Positions 22,162-32,725 of a stretch of DNA of 40,274 bases are shown in pieces. This DNA is from Clostridiales bacterium (lineage in GTDB: Bacteria > Bacillota > Clostridia > Christensenellales > DUVY01): NCBI GenBank assembly GCA_012840805.1, contig DUVY01000021.1:1-40274 (forward strand), in the 5' to 3' direction. Position 1 is the first letter of the stretch; each line of letters begins with the position of its first letter. The notes under the pieces are model-generated. The model searched no databases. It was not told the origin of the DNA and saw nothing but the letters and a program-made list of their open reading frames with translations. The position numbers and the translations under genes were made by a program.

Positions 22162-22665
22162 ATGAAAAAAGTTGTAACCATTCAAATAGTCAGAGGCGCG
22201 ATAATCGCCTCTTTATACGCGGGGCTTACTATATTGATGCAGCCGATATCATACGGGCCGATACAGTTTAGGGTCGCGGAAGCCCTTACTATATTGCCTT
22301 TGTTTTTCGTGGAGGCGATACCGGGATTGGCTGTGGGCTGTCTTTTGGCTAACGCTTATATGTATGGCGCTATTGATATGATTTTGGGCTCGTTGGCGAC
22401 TTTGGTCGCAGCTATTTTGACAAGATATTCCAAAAAAATTTGGCTGGGCGTTGTCCCGCCTATCGTTATAAACGCCTTCACAGTCCCTTTAATACTTTTG
22501 TTGGTCGGCGAAGAGATTGGGTATTGGTTTACGGTCGCGACCGTGCTGGCGGGGCAAGCGGGTGCGGTCATAGGCATAGGCGTTCCGCTTTATTACGCTT
22601 TGAGACCGTTGGTCAAAAAAGGCATCTTAAAAACGCCCGACTCTTATTCTCCAAACGATAAATAA
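22162..22665 (+). CDS. queT: QueT-type ECF transporter S component
   Basis: 167-residue hydrophobic protein with about five membrane helices, matching the QueT family of energy-coupling factor substrate-binding subunits, which import queuosine precursors. The signature is SYGPIQFRVAEALTILPLFF near residues 29-48, followed by GLAVGCLLAN and GAIDMILGSLATL. No energising EcfAT module is nearby, as expected for shared-module S components. Weak ribosome binding site. I saw no convincing preQ1 riboswitch in the 151-bp upstream gap, so the substrate is inferred from the family alone. Confidence 0.88.
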   Translation: MKKVVTIQIVRGAIIASLYAGLTILMQPISYGPIQFRVAEALTILPLFFVEAIPGLAVGCLLANAYMYGAIDMILGSLATLVAAILTRYSKKIWLGVVPPIVINAFTVPLILLLVGEEIGYWFTVATVLAGQAGAVIGIGVPLYYALRPLVKKGILKTPDSYSPNDK

Positions 22666-22683
22666 TATCTTTATAATGTATAA

Positions 22684-22779
22684 AATTTGGGGATTGGGAA
22701 ATAATCAAATTGCTCATCATTTTCCCCCTTATAATATGCAATAAGGACAGCTCTATTTTTCCTGTTGGCTGTCCTTTTT
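22684..22779 (+). ncRNA. Putative C-rich small RNA, copy A
   Basis: Proposed small RNA of about 95 nt between queT and the 3' end of xylA. A TATAAT at 22672-22677 could start it (its -35 is poor), or it may be cut from the queT 3' UTR. It contains a 35-nt block (22703-22737) with core CATCATTTTCCCCCTTAT, which is 33/35 identical to a block in copy B (32630-32664, other strand). Five nt later comes a terminator hairpin whose sequence is unrelated to the one in copy B. The core is the reverse complement of a Shine-Dalgarno plus AUG. In this copy GGGAAA at about 22696-22701 could fold onto the C-rich core. Confidence 0.5.
22743..22779 (+). terminator. Terminator after queT / small RNA A
   Basis: Perfect 9-bp stem AAGGACAGC (22743-22751) with GCTGTCCTT (22768-22776), then T residues on plus. 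On the minus strand no T tract follows, so it is a poor terminator for xylA. Confidence 0.8.
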
Positions 22780-22809: not shown

Positions 22810-24123
22810 TTATGAAAACAGTATTTGGTTGATAATACTCTCAAGATATTCTTGACTGCCGCTTTCTACTTTGATTTCGTCCAAAGTCGAGGCGATTTCG
22901 GCAAGTTCTTTTAAGTTGGTTTTGCCTTCAACTATCTTTTTGCCTATGCCTGTTGAGTAACTTTGATATCTTTGGACGACAAAACTATCTATGCGCCCGT
23001 CCGATATAATTTTGTCCGCGGCAATAAGCCCTATCGCGAAAGCGTCCATACCCGCTATATGAGAGATAAATATATCTTTGAATGTGTTGGAGCTTCTGCG
23101 CGCCTTCGCGTCAAAGTTAAGACCGCCTTTGGTAAACCCGCCAGCTGATAGCACTTCATACATACAAAGAGTGGTTTGATATACATCGGTGGGGAATTGG
23201 TCCGTATCCCAGCCTAGCAAAGTATCGCCTTGATTGGCGTCAATTGAGCCGAACATATTATTATCTTTAGCTACTCTTAACTCGTGCTGAAAAGTGTGTC
23301 CCGCCAAAGTCGCGTGATTGGCTTCTATGTTTAGCTTAAAATATTGGTCAAGTTCGTAAGATTTCAAAAAACCTATGACGGTAGCGGCGTCAAAATCATA
23401 TTGATGTTTTGTAGGCTCTTTGGGCTTGGGTTCTATATAAAAATCGCCCTCAAAACCTATACTCTTGGCATAATCTACTGACATTTTCAAAAACCTAGCC
23501 AAATTGTCAAGCTCTAGTTTCATATCGGTGTTGAGCAATGTTTCGTAGCCTTCCCTGCCGCCCCAAAAGACATAACCTTCGCCCGAAAGTTCCAAAGTGG
23601 CGTCTAGCGCCTCTTTGACTTGGGCGGCGGCGTAACAAAACACATCGGCCGAAGGCGAAGTCGCCGCGCCGTTCATATATCGCGGATGCTCAAACAGCTT
23701 CGCTGTGCCCCATAATAATTTTTTGTTATAATCTTGCTGAAGCTGTTTTAGAAGCTTGACTATTTCTTTTAGGTTTTTGTTGGTTTGGACTAAGGTGTCG
23801 CCCTCGGGCGCTACATCGCGGTCGTGAAAGCAATAAAAATCAATATCTAATTTATCCAAAATCTCAAACGCGGCGTAAGCTTTTAGTTTGGCTGTTTCCA
23901 TTGGGTTAGCGCCGCCAAAACTTTTGTCCATTGAAGCCGCGCCAAACATATCTATGCCTTCGCCGCACAGCGTATGCCAATAGCTCATAGCGAACCTTAG
24001 ATGCTCGCGCATTGTTTTGCCCCTTATTACTCTGTCGGGCTCGTAAAACTTAAAACTCAAAGGGTTTTTGCTGTCTTTGCCCTCGTATTTGATTTTGGGG
24101 ATGTCTTTAAAAAATTCTCTCAT
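22810..24123 (-). CDS. xylA: Xylose isomerase
   Basis: 437-residue metal-dependent TIM-barrel isomerase converting D-xylose to D-xylulose, class II length. Catalytic His100 and Asp103 lie in [11 protein letters not shown]; the metal-site segments FWGGREGYE and [14 protein letters not shown] are intact. The ATG at 24123 is preferred over an in-frame TTG at 24132, because GAGG is spaced correctly only for the ATG. It begins one base past the end of xylB. Last gene of the sugar operon; it supplies the pathway with xylulose from xylose freed by the GH31 enzyme. Confidence 0.97.
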
Positions 24124-24124
24124 A

Positions 24125-25648
24125 TCAACCAACCTCGCTTAAAATTTTGAATCTATATTTTAAATCATCATACAAAGCTTTGTAAATTTTATAATATTGA
24201 TCGTATATTTGGGAAGCTGCCATGTCAGGGGTCGTTTTGTTTTCAAGTTTTAATATGTTTTCGCAGGCGGTTTTTACATCTTTATATAACCCCGTTCCTA
24301 TACCTGACAAAATGGCAGCGCCCAAACATCCGCCTGCGTCTTGCTGCAAGGTATAAACATCGCATTTGAAATTGTCGGCAAGCATTTTCCGCCAATACGG
24401 GCTTTTAGCTCCGCCGCCGCCCGCTACAATGTATTCGGGCTCAATGCCCATATCAATCAATATATTAAGACAATCTCTTTGGCTGTAAGTTATGCCTTCT
24501 ATGACCGCCCGCGCAAAATGCGCCTTGGTGTGTATAGCGCTTATGCCAAAAAATACGCCGCGCGCGTTTGTGTCCAGATGCGGAGTGCGCTCGCCCATTA
24601 GATAAGGCAAGAAGATAAGATTGTCCGCGCCTATTTTGAGTTTTTGGACTTGATCCATAATAATGTCGTATATATTAAGCTTTTTATCAGCGGCCTGCTT
24701 TGCCTCGGTTTGATAAAAATTATCCTTAAACCATTTTAGGCTCAATCCCGCGCCTTGCGTCACGCCCATAACATGCCATTGCCCTTCCACAGCGTGACAA
24801 AAAGTATGCACTCTGCCTAACTTGTCAATCAACGGCTCTTGGGTATGGGCAAACACCACGCCGCTAGAGCCCAAAGTGTCCGACACTCTGCCTTTATCTA
24901 TAATCCCGTTGCCCACGGCGCTTGCCGCCTGATCGCCCGCTCCGCCCGCCACAGGCGTGCCTTTACATAACCCTGTCTCTTCTGCCGCTTGGGCGTTAAC
25001 ATAACCGCTTATATACGAGCTTTCATATACTTCGGGCAAAATTTTGGTATCAATCCCTAAAATTTCGCAAAGTTCGCCCGACCATGTTCTTTTGGGCACA
25101 TCCAAAAGCTGCATGCCGCTGGCGTCGCTCACTTCTGTCGCCAAAACGCCCGTTAGTTTGAATCTGATATAGTCTTTGGGTAATAATATATGAGCGCATT
25201 GTTTATAAATATCGGGCTCGTTGTCTTTGACCCATAATAATTTTGCCGCCGTGAACGCGGGCATCGCGGGATTTGCCGTAATTTCTATAATTTTGTTTCC
25301 GCATTTTTCGGCTATTTTTTTGGCTTGCAAGTCGCTTCTGCCATCGCACCAAATGATAGAATTTCTTAACAGGTTTTTTGAGCTGTCCAGCATCACAAGC
25401 CCGTGCATCTGACCCGAAAGCCCGATGCCAGCGATATCTTGCGGATTTATCTTGCTTTGGTTAAGGACATCTTTTATGCCCAAAACGGTCGCCTTCCACC
25501 ATTGGAGCGGGTCTTGTTCCGCCCAGCCGTTTTTGGGCTGTATCAGCTCATATCCAAATATTGACGAAGCCACAATTCCGCCAAATTGGTCAAACAAAAC
25601 GGTCTTCGTGCCGCTTGTGCCTATGTCAATGCCTATAAGATATTTCAT
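24125..25648 (-). CDS. xylB: Xylulokinase
   Basis: 507-residue FGGY-family kinase phosphorylating D-xylulose to xylulose 5-phosphate. The N-terminal ATP-phosphate loop is [26 protein letters not shown] and the catalytic-base segment [12 protein letters not shown] follow, and the FGGY signature region is [18 protein letters not shown]. The start (MKYLIGID) overlaps the fucosidase stop as ATGA, which rejects a 37-codon longer frame. GGGGAAAG lies upstream of the ATG. Fourth gene of the operon. Confidence 0.96.
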
Positions 25649-26943
25649 TGCTCTTTCCCCGTTTGATTTTTTAGCTCTATCTTTAAGACAGTTATATCCT
25701 TGTATTTGGACGGCGCTATGTCCACAAAAGTATATTGCGGATAATTTGTCGCCACCCATTCGGTCATAATATTTAGCTCGCTAAAGTCGTCAAGCATAAT
25801 AATTTTTTGGATGTCTTTTCTGTCTATTGATGGAAACAATAAAGGACCAATGGGGCGCTCGTAAATATGCGCGAATATTATATTATCTTTTTTTGTATAT
25901 CTGCCCCATTCGGGCTTGGGCAAGCCGCTGTCTGTACATCCATAAATACTTTCGCCGTAAACTTTGAGCCAACCGCCTATTTTTTGTAATATCTGTATAC
26001 ACTCTTGCGGAATATTGCCTCTGGCGTCAGGTCCGACATTAAGTATCATATTGCCGCCTTTAGAAACCGCCTCGGTCAATTTTTTTATAATCAAATCGGC
26101 GCTTTTATAATTTTTGTCCGCCGAGTTGTATCCCCAGCTTTCGTTCATTGACACGCAAATTTCCCAAGGCACATGCTCGCCCGCCTCGTTTTTGAGCGCC
26201 TGTGGCGGCATAAGCTGTTCGGGACAGGCAAAATCGCCGCTAAAAATCTCGGGGTTTTGGCTCATAATACCGCCTAAGTTTTCGCCCGAGGCGTCCAATC
26301 TGCTGTTTATTAAAATTTCGGGCTGATAATTACGAATCATCTTCACAAGCTCGCTTGCGCGCCAATACTCGCCTCTATATTGATCATAAGAAAAGTCAAG
26401 CCACATTAGGTCAATCTTGCCATAATTGCTGACAAGCTCTTTTACTTGGGCGTGCATATAGTCCAAATATTTGGAAAAATCTCTCGGCGTATCGTATTTT
26501 GGATTATCGCGCATAGGATGAAAGGGGTCTTTATATGCGGGATAATGCTCGTGACGCCAATCCAACAAAGAATAATACAGCCCTACCTTAAGCCCTTGCG
26601 CCCTGAACGCGTCTAAAAACTCTTTGACTACATCTTTTTTGAGTTTGGTATTGGTTATCTTGTAGTCTGTTAGTTTGCTGTCAAATAGACAAAAACCGTC
26701 ATGGTGTTTTGCCGTCAATACGGCGTATTTCATCCCCGCTTCTTTGGCGCATTTTGCCCAATTATGCGCGTCAAAATCAACGGGGTCAAACATCTCAAAA
26801 TATTGGTCGTAATCTTCATCAGGGATTTTTTGAATGCTTTTTATCCATTCGCCCTTTGCCGCAATGGCGTAAAGCCCCCAATGGATAAACATCCCAAATC
26901 TAAGATTTCTAAACCAAAGGCTGTTTTCAAATCTTTTACTCAT
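25645..26943 (-). CDS. Alpha-L-fucosidase, GH29
   Basis: 432-residue GH29 enzyme that removes terminal alpha-L-fucose. Typical motifs are FGMFIHWGLYAI, VLTAKHHDGFCLFDS and IDLMWLDFS, where Asp183 is the expected nucleophile. No signal peptide, so it acts in the cytoplasm on imported oligosaccharides. The ATG overlaps the GH42 stop by one base (TGATG), indicating coupling; a TTG one codon earlier is less likely. In this operon it probably unmasks galactose under a fucosyl cap. Linkage preference (1,2 or 1,3/1,4) cannot be read here. Confidence 0.93.
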   Translation of the reverse strand: MSKRFENSLWFRNLRFGMFIHWGLYAIAAKGEWIKSIQKIPDEDYDQYFEMFDPVDFDAHNWAKCAKEAGMKYAVLTAKHHDGFCLFDSKLTDYKITNTKLKKDVVKEFLDAFRAQGLKVGLYYSLLDWRHEHYPAYKDPFHPMRDNPKYDTPRDFSKYLDYMHAQVKELVSNYGKIDLMWLDFSYDQYRGEYWRASELVKMIRNYQPEILINSRLDASGENLGGIMSQNPEIFSGDFACPEQLMPPQALKNEAGEHVPWEICVSMNESWGYNSADKNYKSADLIIKKLTEAVSKGGNMILNVGPDARGNIPQECIQILQKIGGWLKVYGESIYGCTDSGLPKPEWGRYTKKDNIIFAHIYERPIGPLLFPSIDRKDIQKIIMLDDFSELNIMTEWVATNYPQYTFVDIAPSKYKDITVLKIELKNQTGKEQ

Positions 26944-28943
26944 CAATCAATCTTCTCCAAACACCTAAAGCTGTATGGTTCTATCTCAATTACCCCCGAT
27001 AGTTTGGTTGATGTTTCAACATCCAAATATTGTCCGTCTAGTTCTACCCAGCCTTTTTCGTAGAATAATTCAATTACGCAATAGCCTATTTTGTCGCCGT
27101 TTCTTCTTTTGATTGCCAATACATTGGAACTTGTCTTTAGCTTAGGCGCGCAATCGGCTTTTTTTAGATAGGTTTTTATTAGCGCTAATAATCGCTCTTG
27201 CTCGGGCATCGCGCCCATTACGACTATTTCGCCTTTTCCTACCTTGCAACCGACTATGGCGGCTTTTTGGTCTATTGACGGGCTCGGCGAATTATACCTA
27301 GCGATAACTTTGTGCTCGGGCTTGGTCAAAAAGACATCGTTCCATATGGTCGTTTTGCTCAATATCCCGTCTTCAAACTCAATGGTATTATTCAAACAAG
27401 TGGACGGAATTTGATAAATATTTTGTATGCCTGTTAAGTCTTCAATAAACCCGAATACCGAATTTCTATACTTCGCGTAATAGCGGTTGCGTATGTCGGT
27501 CAGCGGTCCTGCTATCCAGATCCCGCCTTGGTTAACCCATTCTATAAGCCTAGCGGCAAAATCCCCTTCTTCTATTGATATCAAAAATGGCGAATACAAA
27601 ACTTTGATGCCGTCTAAAGAATTATTGGGATTATGAACGCTCGGCGCTATGCCGTCTTTTAACAAAGGATAATAACAATTTTTAATAATATTTTCGGTAT
27701 AGTGAAATCCCGCTACTACTTTTTGACCTTCAAAGATATTATAGGCGTTGCTTGAAAAGCTCATAGCAAACTCCGCTTTGTCAAGCTCAAACTCGGTCAA
27801 AAATTGTTGGCACTTTTCCAATGTTTGAGCCGCTTGGACGGTTTCGTCAAAAACATGAACGGGCTTGCCTTGCGATGTTATGACCGAAGAATGCATAAGC
27901 TCGGGTCCCGCGTAATGCGCCCTAAACAGCCAATACAAATTCATCTCGCCCCTAAAAGCAAAAGGAATCAAAGTGTTTATATAATTATAACCAATGGGGT
28001 AAAGACTTGGATTGACGCTGTTCGCGCCGTTCGCGGTGGTGGCTGTTTCGGTGTTCCAAAACGGTCTGTCTTTTAGTCGGGACATATAATCCATCCAAAA
28101 CGCGCACTCATAAAAATTTTCCTTAGAGTGATAATGATTAATCATTACCACATCTAGATTTTGATTGGTTATATAATGGTCCTGACTTACAAAGGTCATC
28201 ATATCCGTTCCGATTGGAACTTTTATGCCGTTTTCTCTTAAGATGTCGGCTTGGCGGGATATAAAATTGGCGTTGCTACGCATTTGAAAATCTATGTATT
28301 CGGTAGTAAAAGCCGGATGAGAGCCCCAATCTTTGATTTTGGGATACTCTATTTGGTCAAAGGCGCTATATTCTATGCTCCAAATTCTAAGCGCCATTTG
28401 TTTATTGAGATTGTCTATTGTTTTGTATTTTTTCTTAAGATGCTTGTAAAACTCCTTCATACAAAAATCGCAATGACAGCCTTGAAGCCAGGGATAGATT
28501 TCGTTATCTATTTGCCAGCCTATGACAGCCTCGTGGTCTTTAAAGTACTGCGCCATCTTAGATACTATCTTTTGGACATAGCTATTAAAGACCGGGCTGT
28601 TGGGGCAGCCGTGTCCGCGCCCGCCGTGAACAGCGTATGAGCCATTGTCATCGCGCCTTAAAATTTCGGGGTGTTTTTTAGTAAGCCATATAGGAGGAGT
28701 ATTGGAAGGAGTGCAAAGAATGCTGTAAATGCCGTTTTGATACAGCTTGTCAACTACTTTTTTGAGCCATTTAAAATTATATTGTCCCTCTTGAGGTTCA
28801 AATACGCTCCACGCGAATTCGCCCATCCGCATAACATTAAGACGGGCTTTTTTCATATATTCTATGTCTTCGTCTATGGTTTCAAAATAATATACCTCAG
28901 GATAATACGCCGCTCCTAAATATAAATTTTTTTTTGACATCAT
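26943..28943 (-). CDS. Beta-galactosidase, GH42
   Basis: 666-residue GH42 enzyme. The acid/base is Glu148 (IGWQIDNE) and the nucleophile Glu299 (FWNTETA). The zinc site of the family is complete: Cys113, Cys156, Cys158 and Cys161. The trimerisation/glutamine-amidotransferase-like domain (about 385-590) and a C-terminal beta domain follow. No signal peptide. AAGAGAG precedes the tandem ATGATG. In context it would release beta-linked galactose exposed by the fucosidase; plant arabinogalactan or milk-type substrates are alternatives. Confidence 0.94.
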   Translation of the reverse strand: MMSKKNLYLGAAYYPEVYYFETIDEDIEYMKKARLNVMRMGEFAWSVFEPQEGQYNFKWLKKVVDKLYQNGIYSILCTPSNTPPIWLTKKHPEILRRDDNGSYAVHGGRGHGCPNSPVFNSYVQKIVSKMAQYFKDHEAVIGWQIDNEIYPWLQGCHCDFCMKEFYKHLKKKYKTIDNLNKQMALRIWSIEYSAFDQIEYPKIKDWGSHPAFTTEYIDFQMRSNANFISRQADILRENGIKVPIGTDMMTFVSQDHYITNQNLDVVMINHYHSKENFYECAFWMDYMSRLKDRPFWNTETATTANGANSVNPSLYPIGYNYINTLIPFAFRGEMNLYWLFRAHYAGPELMHSSVITSQGKPVHVFDETVQAAQTLEKCQQFLTEFELDKAEFAMSFSSNAYNIFEGQKVVAGFHYTENIIKNCYYPLLKDGIAPSVHNPNNSLDGIKVLYSPFLISIEEGDFAARLIEWVNQGGIWIAGPLTDIRNRYYAKYRNSVFGFIEDLTGIQNIYQIPSTCLNNTIEFEDGILSKTTIWNDVFLTKPEHKVIARYNSPSPSIDQKAAIVGCKVGKGEIVVMGAMPEQERLLALIKTYLKKADCAPKLKTSSNVLAIKRRNGDKIGYCVIELFYEKGWVELDGQYLDVETSTKLSGVIEIEPYSFRCLEKID

Positions 28944-28996
28944 TTCTCTCTTAATCTATTGTAGCAGATTGTTTTGGTTTTGTAAATAGCGTTTTT

Positions 28997-31288
28997 TTAT
29001 TTTAATGAAACCGTTATGTTGTTTGATTCTGCCTCAAGCATCAAGCCGCGTTCTGTGACTTTGGCTTGCGCGCCTTGAATTTCGGCGTTTTTTATCCCGT
29101 TAAGAAGTATATATTTTACTTCGCCTTGAGTTATTATGTTGATAACATCTTGTTCTTTAGTCGCGTTTACTTTGGCTTGTCTTTTTTGGTCATAAGTATT
29201 AACAACGCACTCAGCGCGGGATTGAAGATTAAATATCTCATATACCGTATCGGCGATATAATCGTAATCAGGGCGGTCATTGACGCTTCCTTTGGGAATA
29301 ATGCTGTCGGAACGAACATACATAGGCAGCGAGAAAAAGTCATATTGCTTTTTGTGCCATCTGCCGCCTTGAAGTTTTTCGCCGCTTAGATAATGAACCC
29401 ATTCGCCCTCGGGCAAATAAAACTCGCACCAATTGTCTTTGGATAGCACGGGCGCGACCAATATATCTTTTCCAAACATATACTGTCTGTCTAGGTATTT
29501 GCAGGTGGGCTCGTCAAACTCAAAAAACATCGGTCGCATAATAGGCGTGCCTTTTTGGTGCGCTGTTATAGACGCTTGATATATGTAAGGCATTAACGAG
29601 CATTTTAGATTGGTAAAAAACCTTAAAACATCGCAGGCTTCCTCGTCATAGACCCAAGGCACTCTATACGCGCCCGAACCGTGCAGTCTGCTGTGCGACG
29701 ACAAAAGCCCAAAGGCGACCCACCTTTTGTATATATCGGGCGGCGAATTGTTTTCGAATCCGCCTATATCGTGGCTCCAATAACCAAAACCGCTACACAT
29801 CAAGGACAGTCCGCCCCTTAGGCTTTCCGCCATAGAATTGTATGTGGAATTACAATCTCCGCCCCAATGAACAGGAAACTTTTGTCCGCCCGCGCAAGCG
29901 CTTCTGGCAAATAATATCGCCTCGTTTATGCCCTTTTTTCTTTGCAACAACTCAAAGACGCAGGCGTTATATAAATAAGTGTAATAATTGTGCATTGCCC
30001 TAGGGTCAGAGCCGTCATAATAAACCGCGTCTTCGGGGATTTTTTCGCCAAAATCGGTCTTAAAAGAGTCCACGCCCATATCTATTAATTTTTCAAGTTT
30101 GTCCGAATACCATTGGCGCGCTTGGGGATTGGTAAAGTCCACTATCGCCATGCCCGCCTGCCATTCATCGCGTTGGTATATCCGCCCGTCCGCGCGCTTT
30201 AAGAAGTAGCCGTTTTTTAGGCCTTCTTCAAACATCTGCGTTTTTTGGGCAATATATGGATTAATCCAAACGCATATTTTTAGACCTTTTTTGCGAAGCC
30301 TTTTTAGCATGCCTTCTGGGTCGGGGAACGAATCCTTATCCCATACCAAGCTGGTCCATTCAAATTCCTTCATCCAAAAACAATCAAAATGAAAAGTGCT
30401 CAAAGGAATCTGGCGCCTTTGCATTTCGTCTATAAAGAAATTAACAGTTTTTTCGTCGTAATTGGTGGTAAACGAAGTTGACAGCCAAAGCCCATACGAC
30501 CAAGGCGGCAATAACGCGGGTCTGCCGGTTAATTGGGTGTATTTGTCCAAAATATCAGCGGGCGTTTTGCCGTATATGATTACATACTCCAGCTCTTCGT
30601 CAGCCACGGAAAATTGGGTTTCCTCTACCTTTTCGCTTCCTATCTCAAACGAAACAAGGTCGGGCGTGTTGACAAAAATCCCATAGCCCTTGCTACTCAT
30701 AAAAAAAGGCACATTTTTGTAAGACATCTCGCTTGCCGTTCCGCCGTCCACATTCCATATATCTATGGACTGGCCGTTCTTGATAAAGGGCGTAAATCTC
30801 TCGCCGCCGCCATAGATGCATTCGCCCACGTCAAGCTCTAAGCCATTGACCAAGTATCTGGTTTGTGTGTGTTTGTCCGTCATTATTGACAAAGATTTGT
30901 CCAAATAACCCGTAAGCTTTTTATCGCCCGCGAAAAACGATATATTAAACGGCTTTTTTTGGGCGCGCATCGTAAGGTTGCCAGAGGTCAACTCAGCGCC
31001 GCTTTCGGTTATGCGGATGTCTATATTTTTGCGTTCCCATTCAAATTTTTTGATATTTCTTTTGCCGCCTTTGTGACCGATTAGCCTTATGCTTATACAA
31101 TCTTGAAGCGGAGAATACGCTTCTATAGTCAAAAGACCCAAATTAAGCGTATGATAACGAAATTCAATGTTTCTAAACGGACAATACATAGTCAGCAAGT
31201 TTTGGGATTGTCTTATATCCCTGATTTCTCGCGCGTACTCAGCATTAAATTTTTCTTTTACTGTCCAAAGCCCTTCCGTAAATTTCAT
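28997..31288 (-). CDS. yicI: Alpha-xylosidase, GH31 (YicI-like)
   Basis: 763-residue GH31 enzyme, very like E. coli YicI throughout. The nucleophile is Asp412 in FKTDFGEKIPED and the acid/base Asp478 in FPVHWGGDCNS; YicI uses the equivalents Asp416 and Asp482. The YicI-type insert signature YGGGERFTPFIKNGQ and KSLLSSHSRLHG-like LLSSHSRLHGSGAYRVPW are conserved. It should cleave alpha-1,6-xylose from isoprimeverose-type ends of xyloglucan oligosaccharides. Cytoplasmic (no signal peptide). First gene of the operon, with AAGGGG before the ATG and a terminator-like hairpin in its leader. Confidence 0.95.
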   Translation of the reverse strand: MKFTEGLWTVKEKFNAEYAREIRDIRQSQNLLTMYCPFRNIEFRYHTLNLGLLTIEAYSPLQDCISIRLIGHKGGKRNIKKFEWERKNIDIRITESGAELTSGNLTMRAQKKPFNISFFAGDKKLTGYLDKSLSIMTDKHTQTRYLVNGLELDVGECIYGGGERFTPFIKNGQSIDIWNVDGGTASEMSYKNVPFFMSSKGYGIFVNTPDLVSFEIGSEKVEETQFSVADEELEYVIIYGKTPADILDKYTQLTGRPALLPPWSYGLWLSTSFTTNYDEKTVNFFIDEMQRRQIPLSTFHFDCFWMKEFEWTSLVWDKDSFPDPEGMLKRLRKKGLKICVWINPYIAQKTQMFEEGLKNGYFLKRADGRIYQRDEWQAGMAIVDFTNPQARQWYSDKLEKLIDMGVDSFKTDFGEKIPEDAVYYDGSDPRAMHNYYTYLYNACVFELLQRKKGINEAILFARSACAGGQKFPVHWGGDCNSTYNSMAESLRGGLSLMCSGFGYWSHDIGGFENNSPPDIYKRWVAFGLLSSHSRLHGSGAYRVPWVYDEEACDVLRFFTNLKCSLMPYIYQASITAHQKGTPIMRPMFFEFDEPTCKYLDRQYMFGKDILVAPVLSKDNWCEFYLPEGEWVHYLSGEKLQGGRWHKKQYDFFSLPMYVRSDSIIPKGSVNDRPDYDYIADTVYEIFNLQSRAECVVNTYDQKRQAKVNATKEQDVINIITQGEVKYILLNGIKNAEIQGAQAKVTERGLMLEAESNNITVSLK

Positions 31289-31587: not shown

Positions 31588-31708
31588 TGTTATATAAAGA
31601 TTATAAAGTCTGTTTGCCAAAAAATATATGTCAATTATTTTAAAGTTAAGCCAAAAATTGCTCTTCAAAACTGATTAACAGATGTTTTGGTTTTTGTGGG
31701 AGGGGAAA

Positions 31709-32545
31709 ATGAAAGAAGAAATGGTCAATTCTATGTATGAGTTATTAAGAGATAGGGGTAACGACCTTTATATACAGTATGCCGATTTTGATCATTGCGA
31801 TGTGCATTTTCATCAATGTATAGAGCTTGCTTTGCTGGAAGCAGGCGAGATGGTAATTACCGTCAACGGCAAAAGCGAAGCGTTTAGAAGAGGGCAAAAG
31901 GGTCTGGCTTTTATCGCCAGTTATGATGTGCACCATATCTTGCGTTCTGATGACAGTAAAATTATTGTCTGCATTATTCCGGCTTTCTTTTTGAAAGGTT
32001 TTTTTGAAGCGGCGGACGAACTCAATTATCAAAGCTGTTTTATTAAAGACCAAGAGTTTATAGATAAAATTTGGCTATTGCTCAAAGAATTGATGGAACA
32101 TAAAAAAAGCAATCTCTTGTTGGTAAAAGGCATAGTCTATACTATTTTGGGGCATTTGATTGAAAGCAAAATGCTAAAAACCGCCAATGACCCCGCGCCC
32201 AATCAATTGACCCAAAAGGTGTTGGAATATTTAAACAATAACTTCAAATCAAAAATTACATTGGACACTTTGGCGGCAGAGTTCAATTACAGCAAATATT
32301 ATTTTTCTAAGATATTTAATCAATATTTCGCGTGCAATCTTTCAACCTATGTCAATATGTTAAGAGCGACCTATGTCGCCGCTCAACTAAACGAAAACTC
32401 CGCCGAAAAAAATATAGTGGAATTGGCGTTTGATGCGGGCTTTGATAGTATGAGAACATTTTACCGTAGCTTTTATCAATTATTCAAAACAAGTCCCAAA
32501 AATTTTAAAAAGCAGATGTATTGTCAACAAAAAGCCATCAAATAG
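31709..32545 (+). CDS. AraC family transcriptional regulator
   Basis: 278 residues: an N-terminal cupin-type sensor domain (HCDVHFHQCIELALLEAGEM, His29, His33 and His35 near the pocket) and a C-terminal double helix-turn-helix (about 175-275; ITLDTLAAEFNYSKYYFSKI and IVELAFDAGFDSMRTFYRSF). The start is set at 31709, where GGGAGGGG is spaced correctly; the ORF could begin 9 codons earlier. Divergent from the sugar operon, so it probably activates it when an oligosaccharide or sugar binds. Its ribosome binding site and start (GGGGAAAATGA, 31702-31712) are perfectly complementary to the proposed small RNAs. Confidence 0.93.
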   Translation: MKEEMVNSMYELLRDRGNDLYIQYADFDHCDVHFHQCIELALLEAGEMVITVNGKSEAFRRGQKGLAFIASYDVHHILRSDDSKIIVCIIPAFFLKGFFEAADELNYQSCFIKDQEFIDKIWLLLKELMEHKKSNLLLVKGIVYTILGHLIESKMLKTANDPAPNQLTQKVLEYLNNNFKSKITLDTLAAEFNYSKYYFSKIFNQYFACNLSTYVNMLRATYVAAQLNENSAEKNIVELAFDAGFDSMRTFYRSFYQLFKTSPKNFKKQMYCQQKAIK

Positions 32546-32589: not shown

Positions 32590-32623
32590 AAAAAAATGAA
32601 GCGGCTTAAAAATAAGCCGCTTC
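32590..32623 (-). terminator. Terminator of small RNA B
   Basis: Perfect 11-bp stem GAAGCGGCTTA (32598-32608) with TAAGCCGCTTC (32613-32623), 4-nt loop. On minus it is followed by A and then seven T residues (32596-32590); on plus there is no T tract, so it is directed at minus-strand transcripts (the small RNA and any degV read-through). Confidence 0.9.
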
Positions 32624-32690
32624 AAATATATATGATAAGGGGGAAAATGATGAGCTATTTGATTTTGTTGTCCATACCATCTAGCTTACG
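32590..32690 (-). ncRNA. Putative C-rich small RNA, copy B
   Basis: Proposed stand-alone RNA of about 100 nt between degV and the convergent araC gene. It has a perfect TTGACA-N17-TATAAT promoter 59 bp past the degV stop and a strong terminator. The block 32630-32664 (core CATCATTTTCCCCCTTAT) is 33/35 identical to copy A at 22703-22737, while promoter-proximal and hairpin sequences differ, suggesting selection on the core. The core looks like an unpaired antisense to Shine-Dalgarno plus AUG, as in C-rich regulatory RNAs of Firmicutes (RsaE/RoxS, csRNAs). A competing reading, an 18-codon peptide on plus from 32648, is less likely. Confidence 0.65.
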
Positions 32691-32725
32691 AATTGAATTA
32701 TAATATCAATTTAATTTCTTGTCAA
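32691..32725 (-). promoter_or_regulatory. Consensus promoter of small RNA B with palindrome
   Basis: Minus strand TTGACA (32720-32725), 17-bp spacer, TATAAT (32697-32702): perfect sigma-A consensus. An inverted repeat AATTGA (32691-32696) / TCAATT (32706-32711) brackets the -10 box and could be a repressor site. Confidence 0.8.

Follow-up and report, generated by a model that had tools for sequence, protein, structure and literature searches.

The window analysed here is the whole 40,274-nt stretch of contig DUVY01000021.1 from a Clostridiales bacterium (GCA_012840805.1), and its features are collected in Table 1. Two C-rich 35-nt blocks on opposite strands, 10 kb apart, match at 33 of 35 positions (94%), as originally predicted, and form the longest and first-listed inverted repeat of the window. 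Copy 1 lies between queT and xylA, and copy 2 between the gene of an AraC-type regulator and degV. One sister species (G002) retains the two placements, while the queT/xylA and degV sides were seen in the other (G001). The interval bracketed by the two copies holds a xylose utilisation cluster and, with it, the AraC-type regulator gene; of this arrangement, the sister species showed only the ends, with copy 1 beside xylA and copy 2 beside the AraC gene and degV.

Table 1. Coordinates of the two copies and of neighbouring features in the window
Feature	Position	Strand	Remarks
QueT-family transporter gene	22162..22665	+	Pfam PF06177; 46 nt gap to copy 1; synteny kept in G001 and G002
Copy 1 TATAAT	22672..22677	+	25 nt before block; without matching -35
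Copy 1 block	22703..22737	+	
Copy 1 conserved core GCTCATCATTTTCCCCCTTATAATA (anti-start codon and anti-Shine-Dalgarno)	22712..22736	+	kept in G001 and G002
Copy 1 terminator hairpin	22743..22776, T tract to 22779	+	z -3.44 for 22737-22779
Xylose utilisation cluster	22810..31288	-	includes xylose isomerase, xylulokinase and alpha-xylosidase
AraC-type regulator gene	31682..32545	+	
Copy 2 terminator hairpin, 12 pairs	32597..32624, T tract to about 32590	-	z -8.17
Copy 2 block	32630..32664	-	
Copy 2 conserved core GCTCATCATTTTCCCCCTTATCATA	32631..32655	-	kept in G001 and G002
Copy 2 predicted 5' hairpin	32653..32686	-	whole 97-nt transcript z -5.82
Copy 2 promoter TTGACA-17-TATAAT	32697..32725	-	12/12 matches; both boxes kept in G001 and G002
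Copy 2 TATAAT	32702..32697	-	32 nt upstream of block

Both copies carry the signals claimed for them: a TATAAT at 25 nt (copy 1) and 32 nt (copy 2) upstream, within the predicted 25-32 nt, and a terminator hairpin that starts 5 nt after the block in each case (5-6 nt predicted), with hairpins and flanks that are indeed unrelated between the copies. Copy 2, with its consensus promoter and a predicted 5' hairpin whose base takes in the first 3 nt of the core, reads as a complete stand-alone gene. Copy 1 has no promoter-like site and no recognisable -35 box, and its TATAAT is absent from both sister species. It may be processed from the queT 3' UTR, and is probably either derived in this way or a weakly transcribed paralogue that shares the core. 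The stem of its terminator is conserved in three species, while the loop is variable. In both sister species this loop (L012, 1500-1600; L026, 70-175) contains a second C-run, ATCCCCCC, which is missing in the window copy and is possibly a second binding site as in LhrC.

We further characterized the architecture of the RNA in 137 distinct copies with an exact 21-nt core. Near-consensus sigma-70 promoters (score of at least 10 of 12) were found for 107 of 135 copies versus 5 of 135 shuffled sequences, and the promoter spacer was exactly 17 in 108 of the 132 copies scoring at least 9. Terminator-like hairpins followed within 30 nt in 128 of 135 copies (26.3 expected, with a permissive detector that was positive at 44 of 300 random positions); the seven copies lacking a detected terminator include L012 and L026, whose loops exceed the detector limit. 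Information content was high only from about -5 to +26 and near zero outside, and conservation did not extend past the unpaired core. The conserved part spans about 25 nt, from GCTCAT to CATA, and is nearly invariant, with one alternative base tolerated in most copies. Folds of 133 transcripts predicted a 5' hairpin, a single-stranded core (mean unpaired probability 0.59-0.82) and a terminator. Within the terminator helix of 15 alignable relatives, 98.6% of cells were paired and 7 of 14 pairs had changed on both sides, compensation that none of 500 shuffles equalled. Genus-level alignments kept the core and the stems and diverged elsewhere, and in the mixed alignment A1 the hairpins of different families were out of register, so that RNAalifold returned no consensus for it. 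No shared or conserved reading frame was found on either strand. In scans for cre, Rex, CodY and Fur boxes, several AT-rich motifs together exceeded their Markov shuffles, an excess to which we attach no meaning. At the level of sequence the layout is a promoter, a variable 5' hairpin, an invariant unpaired core and a Rho-independent terminator, conserved over much of the order, and the RNA would measure roughly 90-110 nt.

The core, GCTCAT(C/A)ATTTTCCCCCTTATCATA, recurs throughout the order to which the matching genomes presumably belong, the GTDB order Christensenellales. A 33-position sequence model of the core (cut-off E<=1e-3) matched 161 of 396 sampled genomes of the order, including 140 of 329 good genomes, and 54 of its 142 genera. 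When 2 mismatches at most were allowed, the core matched 20 of 61 related genomes, against one match in all for the reversed control, and 18 of 61 remained after four loci judged on reading not to be the RNA (L018, L020, L023 and L028) were dropped. Reading of 30 weaker loci, with 12 still weaker matches left out, revealed one plainly false match (L228) and 29 that keep the core and a following hairpin by eye. In a sample of the class, 10 of 391 genomes matched, eight of them within the order (one being L228 again); the two outside it both lacked a terminator, leaving no credible match outside the order among these 391 genomes. A scan of named genomes yielded at least 120 stretches with the core, and the matches listed were Clostridia or Clostridiales MAGs, Borkfalkia, Ornithoclostridium, Limadaptatus, Christensenella MAGs and the isolate Pumilibacter intestinalis, as well as a few whose name goes no further than Firmicutes and one that bears the label Roseburia. 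By all sequence criteria this is a real order-wide small RNA family.

Copy number is low: 148 of the 161 matching genomes have a single copy and 13 have more than one match. The window's own genome (1.71 Mb in 231 contigs, 93.9% complete) holds exactly two copies when 3 mismatches are allowed over 21 nt, and no match to the reversed control pattern. The original prediction of a small RNA family whose seed is under selection is supported, with the correction that this is not a family of repeats, as there is usually one copy per genome. The proposed genome-wide search produced no further copies; this did not overturn the prediction, because each copy has an orthologue in each of the two sister species and the promoter-core-terminator layout extends across the order. 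A recent duplication, a mobile repeat or chance might be suspected from two copies only 10 kb apart, or from the six copies of another genome (G033), yet the prediction was right to set duplication aside: the flanks are unrelated, both copies are syntenic in the sister species, conservation is order-wide (the 161 of 396 matches contradict this explanation directly), and the collection of viral contigs searched contained no core. We give this explanation practically no weight. The copies of G033 lie on its contigs C2, C5 and C6, with two of the six arranged as pairs less than 1 kb apart that have near-identical promoters and hairpins. In G060, AAGGGGGACATATG or AAGGGGGACATATAATG turns up about six times over several contigs; this appears to be a repeat that has nothing to do with the sRNA.

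No fixed neighbour accompanies the core across the order. The largest cluster among 246 neighbour proteins, which derive from mechanically called ORFs that are in some cases spurious, had 28 members, which we take from the protein itself to be SpmB-like. Mechanically called ORFs of at least 80 aa overlapped 39 of 137 cores, and we counted this against a small RNA. Among the 109 copies with both neighbours called, the upstream gene was on the same strand in 78 and the downstream gene on the opposite strand in 55. The first of these counts, and the position of copy 1 46 nt behind queT with no clear promoter, speak for an element that acts in cis on the adjacent genes, as their leader, attenuator or special terminator. 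Such an element seems highly improbable to us given the strong promoter that most copies possess, neighbours that differ between families, flanks that are not conserved, and the frequency of opposite-strand downstream genes.

The sequence of the core itself points to translation initiation. Its reverse complement, AUAAGGGGGAAAAUNAUGAGC, is an idealised Shine-Dalgarno sequence, spacer and start codon, and reads AUAAGGGGGAAAAU(G/U)AUGAGC as RNA. The start sites of 447 genes, taken from carrier loci and the window, share a consensus with a G peak at -12 to -6 and a T at -1; the reverse complement has its G run, its A-rich spacer and its AUG at the corresponding positions. The conserved part is better read as an anti-Shine-Dalgarno plus anti-start-codon element of about 25 nt than as a C-rich seed alone. 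A small gene starting on the other strand would also account for a near-perfect start site there (Shine-Dalgarno, then ATG AGC). This has only a very slim chance of being correct: the antisense frames are random in length, many being shorter than 20 codons, and unrelated in sequence, which contradicts such a gene, and both the promoter and the T tract belong to the C-rich strand. When paired with 250 of the 447 sites, the A-form core gave a mean of -11.1 versus -9.6 (sd 0.78) for shuffled and -8.6 for reversed cores, and the C form a mean of -11.4 versus -10.1 after shuffling; over the two forms, reversed cores gave -8.6 to -8.9. The excess over shuffled cores was only about 2 sd. Divergent members mostly keep CAT and CCCCCTTATCATA, with outer bases that vary and an intervening spacer that changes by one T, which parallels the variation in start-site spacing. 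Members of family f17 have lost CAT.

It is likely, in our assessment, that the block serves a trans-acting sRNA as its target-binding core, and that this sRNA blocks translation initiation by base pairing without Hfq. We infer that the RNA is transcribed and that its core pairs with translation initiation regions: the Shine-Dalgarno sequence would pair with CCCCCUU, the A-rich spacer with UUUU and the start codon with CAU, so that ribosome binding would be blocked without Hfq. Another reading accepts a real RNA and has the core bind a protein or titrate another RNA, with the likeness to a start-site complement being secondary. It would explain why 25 nt, more than most multi-target seeds need, are nearly invariant with one alternative base tolerated in most copies, why no fully complementary mRNA is conserved, and why the choice between C and A at position 7 shows no relation to better pairing with start sites of the same genomes. 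We regard it as rather unlikely, since the core matches Shine-Dalgarno and AUG in specific spatial register at optimal spacing and its spacer varies by one in divergent members; to our knowledge there is no partner protein, which we also counted against it. Base pairing that blocks initiation is the most likely mechanism because the reverse complement of the core is an ideal start site.

We then asked which mRNAs the core might pair with. No mRNA with a full core complement was found in 18 carrier genomes, and none within 3 mismatches in the window's own genome. Genes behind a AAGGGGGA Shine-Dalgarno were mostly unrelated to one another. No target was universal: pairing was strong for 4 of 5 EF-G-like start sites and very strong for 4 of 16 DUF2804 start sites, and RnfD paired well within one family. 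The EF-G-like genes, identified from reading the protein only, lie near the sRNA in five carriers; with the genomes' own C-form core, four of the five start sites paired at -22.7 to -23.0 and the fifth (L457) at -12.2. Those of L055, L146 and L130 were among the six best of 447 sites, that of L133 lying outside this set (the first EF-G and background energies used the A-form core, and one comparison took the better of both forms). For DUF2804 (PF10974), 4 of 16 start sites paired at -25.9 to -31.8 versus 4 of 447 in the background, and 11 of 16 at -15 or better versus 69 of 447 (A form; one comparison used 11 of the 16 sites); complementarity had been the means of finding the sites of G038 and G060, which are thus not independent, whereas those of G252 and G300 are. 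The EF-G-like and DUF2804 start sites are lineage-specific candidate targets, to be taken as leads and not as proof.

Three further leads were weak or failed. RnfD starts paired at -16.5 to -24.6 in all five f3 genomes whose start was read, and at -25.2 in the non-carrier G027; neither RnfD nor DUF2804 was detected in the window's genome. Alpha-glucan phosphorylase has a near-complementary start in both sister species, the only 2 of 20 genomes in which the gene was found. The start of the AraC-type regulator gene adjoining copy 2 (31709, plus strand; GGGAGGGGAAAATGA) is complementary to the core over 11 contiguous bases and was the best of 36 window ORFs (-21.3, equalled by 24 of 1000 shuffled cores), and its orthologue in G002 pairs poorly (-12.4). 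Targets are probably several per genome and would differ between lineages.

Hfq was not found over the cut-off in any of 24 carrier genomes (two weak sub-cut-off matches, both in f29) and was found in 5 of 12 non-carriers, a contrast confounded by phylogeny; loss of Hfq in the carrier clade is possible. Comparison with Rfam 15 at the gathering score gave no match in the window and, among the loci of 19 relatives, only one unrelated tRNA, so that no known family was assigned at threshold; LhrC (RF00616) was among the weak sub-threshold matches (22.7 bits versus a gathering score of 110). Streptococcal csRNAs are described as small intergenic RNAs, usually with two stem-loops and an unpaired linker complementary to Shine-Dalgarno and start codon (PMC3091779). 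The present RNA resembles them in its two predicted stem-loops flanking an anti-Shine-Dalgarno and anti-AUG (CAU) linker and in having its own promoter and terminator (PMC3091779), and differs in its unrelated core sequence, usual single copy, host order and far stricter core conservation. By analogy, pairing that blocks translation initiation, as for the csRNAs, is the most likely mechanism. Regulation by CiaR was rejected, with exact TTTAAG repeats in 0 of 135 copies and repeats within 2 mismatches in 22 of 135 versus 17 shuffled.

Listeria LhrC, which is multicopy, is described with a single-stranded C-rich stretch between two stem-loops that is predicted to cover the Shine-Dalgarno sequence, and regulates its targets without a need for Hfq (PMC4132741). 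It has three redundant CU-rich sites, in contrast to one binding site here. RsaE/RoxS and FsrA block the Shine-Dalgarno sequence and act without Hfq, and we know of no anti-AUG in fixed register in them. In these sRNAs of Bacilli, C-rich regions are described as binding the targets (PMC8216469). Unlike them, the present RNA has no Rfam match, and its regulation by Rex is unsupported. Alphaproteobacterial sRNAs of Gram-negative hosts likewise carry a conserved, unpaired anti-Shine-Dalgarno motif, CCUCCUCCC, located in hairpin loops and different from the present one. The literal core string and the order name with "small RNA" had no literature match, a limited literature search found no described trans-acting sRNA for this order, and the listing for the host names with sRNA literature suggested no such RNA. 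The supplementary tables of a human-microbiome structured-RNA paper (PMC8040213) could hold an unannotated match. By its sequence, this is a new family within the known kind of anti-start-site sRNAs, whose function would follow from that resemblance.

The seed is near-invariant over at least fifty genera while no single target is conserved, which is a puzzle. As a bolder reading, possible and still unlikely in our view, the 25-nt core that mimics an ideal start-site complement could be an order-wide, Hfq-free global regulator of initiation, acting either by competing in general for strong ribosome binding sites, that of the EF-G-like gene possibly among them, or as a docking site for an unidentified C-rich-RNA-binding protein. 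The host order consists mostly of uncultured gut Clostridia, and the family, with its fixed 25-nt core, is present in a named isolate (Pumilibacter intestinalis) and in genomes without detected Hfq. With it, one can test directly how anti-start-site sRNAs select their targets without Hfq.
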